Part shown: piece after piece, positions 2,801 to 19,752 of the stretch
Numbering within the stretch: position 1 is the first letter of the stretch
Layout of the letters: every line of letters begins with the position of its first letter
DNA from: a virus
Direction: 5' to 3' (one strand)
Virus record (IMG/VR): IMGVR_UViG_3300025098_000170
Location: 1-32,284 of that record
Length of the DNA: 32,284 nucleotides
Translations under genes and position numbers: made by a program
The notes under the pieces: generated by a model
Told to the model about the DNA's origin: nothing
Databases searched by the model: none
The model's input: the letters and a program-made list of their open reading frames with translations, nothing else

Positions 2801-3094
2801 ATGGCAGAAGTAAAAGAAAACGTGGAAACTCCTGAGACTATGTCCCCAGAGGAGATGAAGAAGAAGCGTGCTGAGATCACCAAGTTTTATAAAGAAAGCA
2901 TCAAGAATCTTGAGGTGCAATTGGAGTATGAGAAACTACTCACTGATATTGAGAAGCAACGTGCAGAGCGTGTGCAGGCTCAGATGTTTCTAGCTCAGGC
3001 TTATGGTGCTGGTGAGAAACCTCAGAGTGAAGCTGGTCAAGAGTGGGAAGAGGAATTTGAAGGTGCACCTAAGAGAACTCTAAAGAGAGACTAA
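2801..3094 (+). CDS. Small coiled-coil protein
   Basis: 97 aa, highly charged. Residues about 16-70 are a continuous helix likely to form a coiled coil (KKKRAEITKFYKESIKNLEV and onward to QRAERVQAQMF). They are followed by a Gly/Gln/Glu-rich acidic patch (DE-rich, about 74-89) and a basic tail (KRTLKRD). The leader TTTAAAAACCTAATACA lies directly before the ATG, a motif seen before other structural genes here. The stop overlaps the amidase start by one base (TAATG), so the two are translationally coupled. Possibly a small virion or assembly protein; not recognised. Confidence 0.75.
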   Translation: MAEVKENVETPETMSPEEMKKKRAEITKFYKESIKNLEVQLEYEKLLTDIEKQRAERVQAQMFLAQAYGAGEKPQSEAGQEWEEEFEGAPKRTLKRD

Positions 3095-6563: not shown

Positions 6564-6737
6564 ATGAATAACGAATATATTTTCCCATATTGGGATGACA
6601 TTAAATTAATTAAAAATGAAAAATCAGAAAATCACACCGGTAGGAAGAAAGATTCTAGTAAAGAAGAAGGAAGCAGAGAAGTACTTTGCGGGAACATCAA
6701 TACTAATTCCAGAGGGAACGGGGAAGAAAGAGTGTAA
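6564..6737 (+). CDS. Possible short ORF overlapping the GroES-like gene
   Basis: 57 codons. The first 18 residues (MNNEYIFPYWDDIKLIKN) lie in the 54-bp gap before the GroES-like gene and look protein-like. The rest runs out of frame inside that gene and is low-complexity and polar (KSENHTGRKKDSSKEEGSRE). It may be a real leader peptide coupled to the co-chaperonin, a remnant of a gene whose end was overwritten, or chance. The start follows the previous stop by 2 nt, as for real genes in this operon. Confidence 0.25.
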   Translation: MNNEYIFPYWDDIKLIKNEKSENHTGRKKDSSKEEGSREVLCGNINTNSRGNGEERV

Positions 6738-6894
6738 AGCTATTGTGGTAGCTGTTGGTAATACTGTAGAGCTTATTGAACCAGGACAGGTTATTCAGTA
6801 TGCTGACTATGCTAAACCAACAGTTATGATACATGATGGTGAAGAACACTTTCTTCTAAATGCTGAAGATGTGTTTGCAATCATAAATGCATAA
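6616..6894 (+). CDS. GroES/Cpn10-type co-chaperonin
   Basis: 92 aa, close to the family's usual 95-97. It aligns along its length with E. coli GroES: ITPVGRKILVKKKEAE (RPLHDRVIVKRKEVE in GroES), a mobile-loop region about 19-35 with SILIP in place of GGIVL, AIVVAVGN (EVLAVGN), VELIEPGQVIQYADYA (the ...VGDIVIF strand), and EEHFLLNAEDVFAII (EEVLIMSESDILAIV). The roof hairpin segment of GroES looks shortened. The hydrophobic tripeptide that docks on GroEL is kept as I-L-I. It should cap host GroEL to fold phage proteins, most likely the capsid protein, as T4 gp31 does. It overlaps the TerL start by 8 nt. No GroEL gene is in the window. Confidence 0.88.
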   Translation: MKNQKITPVGRKILVKKKEAEKYFAGTSILIPEGTGKKECKAIVVAVGNTVELIEPGQVIQYADYAKPTVMIHDGEEHFLLNAEDVFAIINA

Positions 6895-11917: not shown

Positions 11918-11937
11918 TTTTGATTATATTATTAATG
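11918..11937 (+). promoter_or_regulatory. Putative late promoter element, copy 1
   Basis: TTTTGATTATATTATTAATG lies in the 111-bp gap before the scaffold-like gene. It is similar to elements at 18187, 19828, 21141, 25203 and 26457. The gap otherwise holds only AT-rich DNA and the TTAAAACCAAT leader motif at 11940-11950. Confidence 0.4.
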
Positions 11938-11955
11938 TATTAAAACCAATAAATT

Positions 11956-13218
11956 ATGAGTAATAACGAAAGCAACGTGAATACTAAGGTAGAAACAGTT
12001 GATGTAAACATTGATGAAATATTTGGAGCTGCTCCAACAGGTGCTGATATGGTAACTGATGATAAGCCATCTCGCCCAAATATTTTTGGTCCTGTTAAGC
12101 CTGAAGTAGATATGTCATTTACTGAGCCAGAAGAATCTGAGCCAGTTGTAGAAACTGATGAACCTGTAGTAGAAGAACCTACTGAAGAAGTTTCTGAGGA
12201 AACAAAAGAAGAAGTTACGACAACTACAACAGAAGCATCTGATCTTTTAGATAACATTGATGCAGAAGAAACTACAGAAACAAGAGGTAGAAAAAGGATT
12301 TCAGGTATTACTGATGTATTTCACAAGTTAATTAAGGATGATAAGATCATTCCTTTTGATGATGATAAAGCACTTGAAGATTATTCTGCTAAAGATTGGC
12401 AAGAACTTATTCAAGCTAACTTAGATGAAAAAGCAAATGCTGTACGTAGAGAAACTCCACGTCAATTTTTTGAAAGTCTTCCTAGAGAACTTCAAGTAGC
12501 TGCTAAGTATGTAGCTGATGGAGGTACTGATATGAGAGGTTTATTTAGTACACTAGCTGCAGTAGAAGAAACAAGATCATATGATCCATCATCTAAAGGT
12601 GGTCAAGAAGCTATCATTAGAGAATATCTTGGTGCTACTGGTTATGGTACACCTGAAGAGGTTCAAGAAGAGATTGAGACTTGGAAAGATCTTGGTAAGC
12701 TTGAACAACAAGCTAAGAAGTTTAAACCAAAGTTGGACAAGATGCAAGAAAAGATTGTTCAAGAAAAACTTAAGCAGCAAGAAGCTAAAAAAATTCAGAA
12801 GGAAAATGCTTCTAAGCAATACATGAATAATGTATACGCAGCATTAAAAGAAGGTTCTGTTGGAGATATTAAAATTGACAAGAGAACACAATCAATGTTA
12901 TTTAATGGATTAGTTCAACCTGCATATCCTTCAATTAATGGCAGCAATACAAATTTATTAGGACACTTACTTGAGAAGTATCAATTTGTAGAACCTAACT
13001 ATCAACTTATTTCTGAAGCATTATGGTTACTGCAAGATCCTGGTGGATACAAAGCTAAGCTTATGGAGAAGGGTTCTCAAGCAGCTGTTGAAAAAACAGT
13101 TAGAAAATTGAAGACTGAACAATCTGTAAAGACTTCTGGTGAGAGAGCAACTGAATCAAGTGAGACAAGTAGCAGAAGAAAGCTACCTAGAAAACAAAAT
13201 ATTTTTAAACGATTTTAA
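11956..13218 (+). CDS. Scaffold-like head assembly protein
   Basis: 420 aa between portal and MCP, the normal place of a scaffold. The N-terminal 110 residues are acidic and disordered (repeated PVVE, EEPTEEVSEE, then TTTTTE). The middle (about 115-225) is mixed. About 235-290 is a Lys/Gln/Glu coiled coil (EQQAKKFKPKLDKMQEKIV). The last 40 residues are basic and Ser-rich and end NIFKRF, like the basic coat-binding tail of P22-type scaffolds. The tripeptide IF with polar or acidic flanks recurs at 21-24 (EIFG), 42-45 (NIFG) and 415-420, possibly a docking motif. The role as scaffold is inferred from position and composition, not from a recognised family. Confidence 0.72.
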   Translation: MSNNESNVNTKVETVDVNIDEIFGAAPTGADMVTDDKPSRPNIFGPVKPEVDMSFTEPEESEPVVETDEPVVEEPTEEVSEETKEEVTTTTTEASDLLDNIDAEETTETRGRKRISGITDVFHKLIKDDKIIPFDDDKALEDYSAKDWQELIQANLDEKANAVRRETPRQFFESLPRELQVAAKYVADGGTDMRGLFSTLAAVEETRSYDPSSKGGQEAIIREYLGATGYGTPEEVQEEIETWKDLGKLEQQAKKFKPKLDKMQEKIVQEKLKQQEAKKIQKENASKQYMNNVYAALKEGSVGDIKIDKRTQSMLFNGLVQPAYPSINGSNTNLLGHLLEKYQFVEPNYQLISEALWLLQDPGGYKAKLMEKGSQAAVEKTVRKLKTEQSVKTSGERATESSETSSRRKLPRKQNIFKRF

Positions 13219-16991: not shown

Positions 16992-17699
16992 ATGTTAAAT
17001 TCAACCCTTCAGATAAAACTTAAAGAAAGACTTAATAAACTAGATAGCCAAGACTTTGATAATATAGAGTGTTGGCAGTTTATTGAAGCTTTTAATAAGG
17101 CACAGACTGAGTGGGTTAGAAGACAACTACACGGTAACAATTTATATAAGGAAGCAGATGAGTATTCTAAAAGAAGAATAGATGATCTACAAGTCCTTCT
17201 TACAGAGACTCCTCTTACTGGTGCATCTAATGATGAATTTTTTGAATCTAGTAATTTTCCGGTAGATGATTACATGGAGTATAAAAGAATTAGTGTAGAT
17301 GCTACCAGTAGTTGCTGTCCTGATAAAAGATCAATGACTGTTTATCTTGTAAGAGAAGAGAATATTGATCTATACCAGAGGGATCCATTAAAAAGACCTG
17401 ACTTTGATTGGAGTGAAACACTAGCAACAATGCTTAATAATACAGTTAGAATCTACAAGAATGCAGATTTTAATTTAGTGGATCCAGTTCTAACATATTA
17501 TAGAAGGCCTACATATATTCAAATATTAGATTGCACTAATCCATATACAGGTGAAACATCTGTAGAGGAAGTAGAATGTGAATTCAAAGATGATATAGTA
17601 GAAGTAATTCTTGATGAAGCTGCATCAATACTTGCCGGTGATATAGAAAACTTTAGTCAATATACTAGAGAGCAACAATCAGCAGAAAGGAATAACTAA
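16992..17699 (+). CDS. Head-tail ring/adaptor protein
   Basis: 235 aa. It starts with a helix-loop-helix (LKERLNKLDSQDFDNIECWQ, then FNKAQTEWVRRQL). A beta core follows (DDYMEYKRISVDATSSCC, SMTVYLVREENIDLY). Then comes the typical phrase NTVRIYKNADFNLVDPVLTY with RRPTYIQ, and an acidic helical end (DDIVEVILDEAASILAGD). This order is characteristic of the ring proteins that stack under the portal in crAss-like phages. Last base of stop and first of next start overlap (TAATGG). Ring assignment is good; which ring is unknown. Confidence 0.78.
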   Translation: MLNSTLQIKLKERLNKLDSQDFDNIECWQFIEAFNKAQTEWVRRQLHGNNLYKEADEYSKRRIDDLQVLLTETPLTGASNDEFFESSNFPVDDYMEYKRISVDATSSCCPDKRSMTVYLVREENIDLYQRDPLKRPDFDWSETLATMLNNTVRIYKNADFNLVDPVLTYYRRPTYIQILDCTNPYTGETSVEEVECEFKDDIVEVILDEAASILAGDIENFSQYTREQQSAERNN

Positions 17700-18181
17700 T
17701 GGAACGACAACTTAAAAGACAGCCTGCTAAACCAATGTTAAAGAGACCTGATGGTAAACCTGCTATTGAGTCTACTATGGAGAGATCTGCTGATATGCAG
17801 AAAGTGGATATGATGACTGGTTCTTATGTTCAGTGTTTAATGAATGCTTCAACAAGTTTTCATAAGTTACATTTGCAAGTAACAGGGGTTGGATCATATG
17901 CTCAGCATAAAGCTTTGAATAATATATATGATGCATTGCCGGATTTAGCAGATAGCATTGCTGAGGGATATCAAGGAGCATGTGAAGTTATATTAGACTA
18001 TCCTGAAGAAGCTCCTGTAATTTTAACATCTGTTGATGGAGCTGTTGAGTATTTAAGATATATGGCAATGAAAACAGATGAGCTTCAAGCAGTTATGCCT
18101 CATACAGAGATTGTTAACCAATTAGATATGGTTAAGGATGCTGTAAACTCTGCAAAGTACAAATTATTGTTTCTTAGTTAG
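17699..18181 (+). CDS. Dps/ferritin-like four-helix protein with ferroxidase residues
   Basis: 160 aa. Residues 1-37 are a basic, Pro-rich tail (RQLKRQPAKPMLKRPDGKP). About 38-155 form four helices. His58, His70, Asp85 and Glu89 have exactly the spacing of E. coli Dps ferroxidase ligands His51, His63, Asp78 and Glu82. Only the Asp67 position is changed (Asn74). The context FHKLHLQVTG and LADSIAEGYQG also matches the Dps pattern. Dps proteins oxidise and store iron and bind DNA; a basic N-terminal tail is their usual DNA-binding element. The place among tail/ring genes is unusual for a Dps. A catalytically inert structural helper with the same fold is the alternative. It ends in TAG. Confidence 0.72.
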   Translation: MERQLKRQPAKPMLKRPDGKPAIESTMERSADMQKVDMMTGSYVQCLMNASTSFHKLHLQVTGVGSYAQHKALNNIYDALPDLADSIAEGYQGACEVILDYPEEAPVILTSVDGAVEYLRYMAMKTDELQAVMPHTEIVNQLDMVKDAVNSAKYKLLFLS

Positions 18182-18186
18182 AAAAG

Positions 18187-18206
18187 TTTTATTATATTAT
18201 ATATGT
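18187..18206 (+). promoter_or_regulatory. Putative late promoter element, copy 2
   Basis: TTTTATTATATTATATATGT starts 6 nt after the Dps-like gene and lies about 50 bp before the 18253 start. It matches the element group described at 26457. Confidence 0.45.
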
Positions 18207-18252: not shown

Positions 18253-19752
18253 ATGGCTTATTTTAATCATGCATTTAGAAAATGCTTTTTGGTAGACAGT
18301 GTTACTACTGCTGCTGGAGCCACTACAACTTTAGGTCCTGGTGATCTAGGTGTTGTTGATGGTTCAACTTGGCAGATTGTGGCTAACCCCGCTGCTGTTA
18401 GTGCTGGTGCACAAACGTTTTTGGTAGTTGGTTCACAACATACTGTTGACACTATTGGTAATAATCCTGGACACGGTGGATATTCTGAATCCGTTAAGTC
18501 TAAAGGAATTATGGGCAAATACATTAGTAAACTTTGGAAGTCTTTAGATTGTGCTCCTGCTGCAGCTACTGCTTCTGTTCAATTAGCTTCTGACTGTGTT
18601 CCATGTGGATCTAGCATCTTTTTAAGAATGGACGTTAAAGGTTCTCCTGCACTTCGTTTCTTGAATCACAATGCTTATGCTATTGGAGATTCTGCAAATG
18701 TTTGTTGTGTAGACGGACAAGACTATATTGATCCAGCTGCTGCTCTTGCAGAAGCAGGTTCTCAATTATTAGCTGATCCAATTCTTTCTCCATTTGTTAG
18801 AGAAGATTCTGTTGGAGGTGTTCCTGCTGCGGTTGGAGCTGGTGCATCTGCATCTGGTAATTTCTTTGGTGCTCCTACAACATATGCTAATGTTGCTGTA
18901 AAATCTACATCAGGATCTGGTGTAATTACTGGTGCAACAGTTACTGTAACTGCACAAGCTGGTGTTGGTGCTACAGCTGTTATTGATGCTGGTACATTTG
19001 CACAAGGTGGTTATGCAGTAGGAGATACTGTTGTTGTTGATGGTGCTGGTGTTGGTGGTACTACTAGTACTGATGATATTACTTTTACTATTACATCATT
19101 AGCTCAAGGTGGTATTACTATCGTAAGAGGTGGTGTTACATACTATTACACTATTGCTGAAGTAAAAGCAGGTACTTATGCAGCATCTACTGATCCAGTA
19201 ACTGATGGTGTATCTGCTACTCTTACAGTAGAAGGTGCTTATGTTGATACTCAGTTTGGTAACTGCTCATTTGATACAAGAGATCACTATGAGAAGGAGC
19301 CTGTACAAATCATCTTATCTAATCTTGATGAGACTGGTGAACCATGTAATGATTGTGGTGTAGCTTCCAGAACTACTGGAGTTATGGCTCAGATTTCTGG
19401 TGAAACTGTTCTTAGAGATTTGTTAATGAGTGAACGTTACATGCAAATGCCTTATAATCAAGGTAATGCTGATTCTTCAAGAATTCGTGAGATTGAGCAT
19501 TCTGATGATATTGTCAGTGCTGTTGATAGAAGTGCGAGATATGTTTCTCTAAATCTTCTTCACAGTGTTCCACGATTTAATAATCCTAGTGGAGTATTTG
19601 ATAATGATCAGTACTTATATACTTTCTATGCAGTAGCTGGATCTGCCGGTGAAACTGCACTAGATACATTATTTGGTCAGATTGCTGCACTAGCTAGTGT
19701 AGATGCAGTTCTTGACACAACTGATGCTTGCGGAAGTCCTTGTACTATTTAA
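18253..19752 (+). CDS. Major Cys-rich structural protein, probably tail or fibre
   Basis: 499 aa. The N-terminal 180 residues are compact (YFNHAFRKCFLVDS, GKYISKLWKS). Residues about 195-325 are an Ala/Gly/Thr/Val-rich beta insertion (for example ATVTVTAQAGVGATAVIDAG) that looks Ig-like. The C-terminal third resumes a conserved body (EPVQIILSNLDETGEPC, VLRDLLMSERYMQMPYNQGN) with helix ENDs near 470. Cys pairs occur as CVPC, CC, CNDC and CGSPC, suited to disulfide or metal bridges. It has its own promoter-like element in front and a terminator behind, so it is likely made in large amount. Not recognised as a named family. Confidence 0.72.
   Translation: MAYFNHAFRKCFLVDSVTTAAGATTTLGPGDLGVVDGSTWQIVANPAAVSAGAQTFLVVGSQHTVDTIGNNPGHGGYSESVKSKGIMGKYISKLWKSLDCAPAAATASVQLASDCVPCGSSIFLRMDVKGSPALRFLNHNAYAIGDSANVCCVDGQDYIDPAAALAEAGSQLLADPILSPFVREDSVGGVPAAVGAGASASGNFFGAPTTYANVAVKSTSGSGVITGATVTVTAQAGVGATAVIDAGTFAQGGYAVGDTVVVDGAGVGGTTSTDDITFTITSLAQGGITIVRGGVTYYYTIAEVKAGTYAASTDPVTDGVSATLTVEGAYVDTQFGNCSFDTRDHYEKEPVQIILSNLDETGEPCNDCGVASRTTGVMAQISGETVLRDLLMSERYMQMPYNQGNADSSRIREIEHSDDIVSAVDRSARYVSLNLLHSVPRFNNPSGVFDNDQYLYTFYAVAGSAGETALDTLFGQIAALASVDAVLDTTDACGSPCTI

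Follow-up and report, generated by a model that had tools for sequence, protein, structure and literature searches.

The open reading frame at positions 17699–18181 (+ strand) of the viral sequence analysed here (32,284 nucleotides, in the following called the window) encodes a 160-aa protein of family DUF5856 with a predicted Dps-like four-helix fold. With about even confidence we regard it as a late, optional Dps-like metal-binding protein that is docked by its N-terminal tail and most likely resides in or on the phage particle.

Family assignment and predicted fold

The frame is present exactly where the first-pass annotation had placed it, and the Dps/ferritin-like protein proposed there is borne out by Pfam, PHROG, profile searches and structure prediction. 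In the Pfam scan the protein was assigned to DUF5856 (PF19174) with 54.4 bits and an E-value of 2.8e-14, which passes the gathering cut-off of 34.6 bits, and it also matched PHROG 858 (E 1.7e-19). The T4 protein RI.-1 (MobD.6) belongs to DUF5856 too. Using the family profile, solved Dps/NAP chains including HP-NAP were retrieved with an E-value of about 1e-4 and aligned via the same residues that are described below as ferroxidase-type; hmmscan gave no match of the window protein to PF00210 (Ferritin) up to E 1. DUF5856 is widespread, with tblastn matches in 782 phage records, and was not found by name in the literature searched. A cellular source was considered and rejected, the single match in genome_contigs being a 7.9-kb Sphingomonadaceae MAG contig that is possibly a mis-binned phage.

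The AlphaFold2 model, calculated from 25 sequences (window and loci), shows four long helices and a short B–C helix (residues 31–60, 66–90, 92–98, 112–132 and 136–159) with a mean pLDDT of 83.9, and thus predicts the topology of Dps. The best VIA match was MsDps2 (Z 16.1, rmsd 2.1, 126 residues), and Dps and other ferritin-like proteins recur down the VIA list, with about 14% identity in the structural alignments. Since unrelated helical bundles can score about Z 13–14, this match supports the Dps fold without proving it. The four-helix bundle with short B–C helix that characterizes Dps mini-ferritins is accordingly found in the model as well as in its VIA matches, as a prediction. Foldseek matches against the PDB were weak (best E 8e-3), the top ones nearly all being Dps; matches against viral models were better, with six below 1e-3, one of them a crAss-like 'DNA-binding protein'. 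Family and fold evidence rule out a chance spacing of residues and, judged by sequence and model, homology is what explains the Dps likeness of the window protein.

Conservation of ferroxidase-type residues

The ferroxidase-type residues are encoded within 17870–17965 (+) and comprise His58 (17870–17872), His70 (17906–17908), Asp85 (17951–17953) and Glu89 (17963–17965). Positions and spacings previously given for these residues and for Asn74 were correct, and the quartet aligns with His51, His63, Asp78 and Glu82 of the Dps ferroxidase site (E. coli numbering). It is kept in all 83 distinct relatives, 82 of which stem from the loci of the clade and one from Methylophilaceae phage P19250A. The quartet was recognized by pattern in 65 of them (spacing 12/27/31 in 63, 9/24/28 in two) and read by eye in the other 18, which are off pattern at Tyr91 only. 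The acidic ligand of Dps at the Asp67 position is missing: the window protein has Asn74 there (17918–17920, +), and the 83 relatives have Asn, Gly or Gln, never Asp or Glu. T4 RI.-1 has Asp at the equivalent position, and the homolog of Klebsiella phage VMC03 has Glu. Lack of this ligand could weaken or abolish iron oxidation. Strong conservation extends beyond the metal residues to a C-terminal KYKL.FL motif and to EGYQGACE (residues 89–96; 17963–17986, +), which begins the predicted B–C helix and is invariant in the first 35 relatives. The gene is under purifying selection, with a median dN/dS of 0.135 vs 0.062 for the ring gene in 41 close, non-independent pairs.

With bacterial Dps and HP-NAP the window protein has in common the predicted fold and topology, the His-His-Asp-Glu spacing and a basic tail, whereas it differs in the exchanged Asp67 ligand, in the low identity noted above and in a tail that keeps a peptide rather than a charge. 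T4 RI.-1 has the aligned H-x2-H, second His, Asp and Glu and the same C-terminal half, but its A–B loop is three residues shorter, it retains an acid at the Asp67 position and it has no R-x-L-K tail. The RI.-1 gene is located beside the rI lysis-inhibition genes without structural neighbours, while the window gene lies in a structural block.

Genomic context and host

The window originates from a crAss-like phage. Besides a portal protein it encodes a capsid protein (Crass_capsid, E 9e-32) and ring proteins (CrAss_Ring_2, E 8e-21; CrAss_Ring_1, E 1.5e-11), the Crassvirales-type combination of crAss capsid and rings. The gene in front of DUF5856 (16992–17699, +) had been taken for a ring protein gene; a match to CrAss_Ring_3_4 (E 4.8e-5) agrees with this, but it is weak and below the Pfam cut-off, and we refer to the product as ring protein 3/4-like. 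Its stop codon and the ATG of the DUF5856 gene share one base (TAATG, 17697–17701). A 499-aa gene (18253–19752, +), which the first-pass annotation proposed to encode a high-expression virion protein, follows; in loci that lack DUF5856 it directly succeeds the ring gene. The order ring, DUF5856, 499-aa gene is kept in DUF5856-anchored loci wherever the sequence reaches far enough; in one contig (L075/L110) more than 1 kb separates ring and DUF5856 genes.

Between the DUF5856 gene and the next gene of the virion block an A+T-rich promoter-like motif, TATATTATATATG, was found (18193–18205, +). A motif scan for TATATTATWWAWG-like sequences yielded 10 matches with at most one mismatch in the window vs a shuffled mean of 3.1, including sites at 11925, 18193, 19834, 20906 and 24105 (+). 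At 11925 and 18193 the match is exact; both sites sit just ahead of structural genes and may represent candidate late promoters. The window also encodes a GroES-like co-chaperonin (6616–6894; Cpn10, E 7.6e-13) directly upstream of the terminase gene, an arrangement seen in relatives as well.

T9SS is a secretion system of Bacteroidota. A T9SS type A sorting domain (E 3.6e-12) occurs in a 1054-aa protein of one relative phage (G013; L300:9369–12530, − strand), which points to a Bacteroidota host for that phage. The Bacteroidota host assumed in the first-pass annotation hence receives indirect support from one relative, but the nearest annotated capsid relative, Leptolyngbya phage Lbo-JY46 (L052; 28% capsid identity over 99%), infects a cyanobacterium. 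Lbo-JY46 carries many tRNA genes, and its annotation does not mention a crAss-like likeness.

The DUF5856 gene is optional and appears to be exchanged between phages

Loci anchored on the ring or capsid gene give a less biased view of gene presence than loci anchored on DUF5856 itself. DUF5856 is located beside the ring gene in 44 of the 78 loci anchored on the ring and in 21 of the 62 anchored on the capsid, and it is not found there in the remaining 34 (one of them with DUF5856 1.3 kb downstream) and 41, respectively. No DUF5856 copy above the cut-off was detected elsewhere in 12 gene-absent records, some of which are fragments, and no PF00210 substitute was matched in the genomes of relatives lacking DUF5856 at the ring gene, some of these records again being fragments. 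DUF5856 is also missing from Lbo-JY46. A ring-protein tree of 94 rows requires at least 11 changes between presence and absence, seven of which are forced by strong branches. In L117/L118 about the last 17 DUF5856 codons are left after the ring stop codon and relatives beside them have the whole gene; this remnant reads as the scar of an in-place deletion. Among L249–L259 the ring proteins are 94–97% identical and the DUF5856 proteins as little as 54–57%, and L190 has a short-loop type of DUF5856; alleles hence appear to have been exchanged between phages. In four loci without DUF5856 (L139, L150, L160, L167) another small ORF starts right after the ring stop codon, and the slot may take other passengers too.

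By this distribution of sequences the DUF5856 gene is accessory and tied to the ring gene when present. The lack of DUF5856 beside the ring gene in so many loci disfavours an essential ring or capsid component; frequent absence and the deletion in L117/L118 speak against the structural role suggested earlier, if meant as an essential one.

A tail peptide common to DUF5856 and a 97-aa core protein

The N-terminal tail contains the peptide RQLKR (residues 3–7; 17705–17719, +), conserved in relatives as R-x-L-K. This motif occurs among the first 15 residues in 64 of 80 relatives, against a mean of 1.0 and a maximum of 5 in shuffled sequences, a comparison that overstates independence because the relatives share ancestry. 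Tail lengths vary, and so does the net charge, which is +4 in the window protein and ranges from −2 to +7 across relatives. A basic tail, as described in the first-pass annotation, is thus a feature of the window protein but no family-wide property. Its suggested likeness to a Dps-type DNA-binding tail was not supported, as R-x-L-K persists while charge does not, and a charge-based DNA-binding arm is disfavoured.

The same peptide recurs as RTLKR (3074–3088) at the C-terminus of a 97-aa protein (2801–3094, +), for which no family match was found. This is a core protein, with an ortholog in 19 of 19 genomes whether DUF5856 is present or absent. Its end conforms to R-x-L-[KR]-[KR] in 17 of the 19 sequences (shuffled mean 0.015) and follows an acidic stretch that varies. 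Of the 27 window ORFs tested, only DUF5856 and the 97-aa protein have R-x-L-K-R near an end. A general terminal tag was rejected, R-x-L-K[KR] being found at an end of only 5 of 419 ORFs from three near-complete records, namely three 97-aa orthologs, one amidase and one 1784-aa protein (single genome). We infer that the R-x-L-K tail looks like a docking peptide common to the two proteins. It is a tentative and rather unlikely extension of this that R-x-L-K[KR] is a particle-targeting peptide which would recruit an exchangeable Dps-like cargo by its N-terminus and the core 97-aa protein by its C-terminus to one particle site, DUF5856 then being a widespread class of packaged mini-ferritins.

A 420-aa protein encoded between the portal and capsid genes, the position of a scaffold (11956–13218), has a basic, conserved C-terminus ([KR]K[IL]xR..NIFKR[IF]). 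It is similar in flavour to R-x-L-K, a likeness that need not mean relationship.

Detection of homologs in particle preparations

Among published particle proteomes, LIMEstone1 ORF078 is listed with three unique peptides and 28% coverage (PMC3296691), Sajous1 gp217, modelled as ferritin by its authors, was detected in CsCl particles with 10 spectra (PMC10892097), and gp108/gp100 of Klebsiella phages VMC03/04, annotated as 'starvation-inducible transcriptional regulator', gave 26/27 spectrum matches (PMC13119998). Our family check, which covered ORF078, gp217 and VMC03 gp108, assigned all three to DUF5856. The three proteomes are linked through DUF5856 here; the passages of the papers that were consulted make no such connection. 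The earlier view that packaging is plausible has become likelier now that homologs are listed in particle proteomes from three further groups of phages.

Particle preparations of this kind hold carry-over; in that of VMC03, 153 proteins had two or more matches (PMC13119998). The Ackermannviridae late structural protein (LIMEstone1 ORF078, Sajous1 gp217) resembles the window protein in family and late-gene surroundings, but has 117 aa, no N-terminal tail, a shorter A–B loop and other neighbours; it was reported from purified particles. As the homologs detected in particles are distant from the window protein and have no R-x-L-K tail, packaging in the window phage, which is uncultured, is something we can but infer. 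Infection by Sajous1 and its kin was unaffected by loss of tonB or feoB (PMC10892097), which leaves an iron-uptake entry role unsupported for these phages.

Possible function

We favour a scheme in which a Dps-like four-helix protein would be made late, its translation coupled to that of the tail ring protein, and would most likely end up in or on the particle. The R-x-L-K tail would dock it to a phage partner, perhaps the same one as that of the 97-aa C-terminus. Metal chemistry and an oligomeric state may be envisaged, and the likely benefit would be iron bound or oxidised next to DNA, be it while particles assemble, once they are free or when they enter. An optional gene that is swapped between phages would fit a protective passenger and no essential part of the particle.

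A role in the infected cell, somewhat unlikely in our assessment, would make the protein a late intracellular scavenger of iron and peroxide, to the benefit of the host cell or of replicating DNA, which it would protect; its homologs in particles would be carry-over. Such a role has been put forward for Dps- and catalase-like genes in gut phages (PMC8008677), the T4 RI.-1 gene lies in a non-structural region, and optional status suits an auxiliary gene; yet the gene's constant place within the structural block, its stop/start overlap, the homologs in three particle preparations and a conserved tail peptide, which suggests a phage binding partner, speak against it. It is improbable that the protein is a repurposed four-helix accessory structural or assembly factor near ring or capsid, whose His, Asp and Glu residues would hold a structural metal or a dimer interface without iron oxidation. 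Absence from many close relatives and deletion in L117/L118 imply assembly without need of DUF5856, and the full His-His-Asp-Glu set is kept even in distant family members. Clade-wide replacement of the Asp67 ligand, the strong conservation of EGYQGACE and KYKL.FL and the tight link to the ring gene nevertheless fit such a factor.

For the passenger scheme that we favour, the three proteomes together with the Dps fold would point to a packaged mini-ferritin, and this role is specific enough to be put to the test in laboratory phages, T4 for example. The pattern of presence and absence provides natural pairs with and without the gene. If the conserved tail peptide is a targeting signal, it would help to study the way in which passenger proteins are loaded by crAss-like phages.
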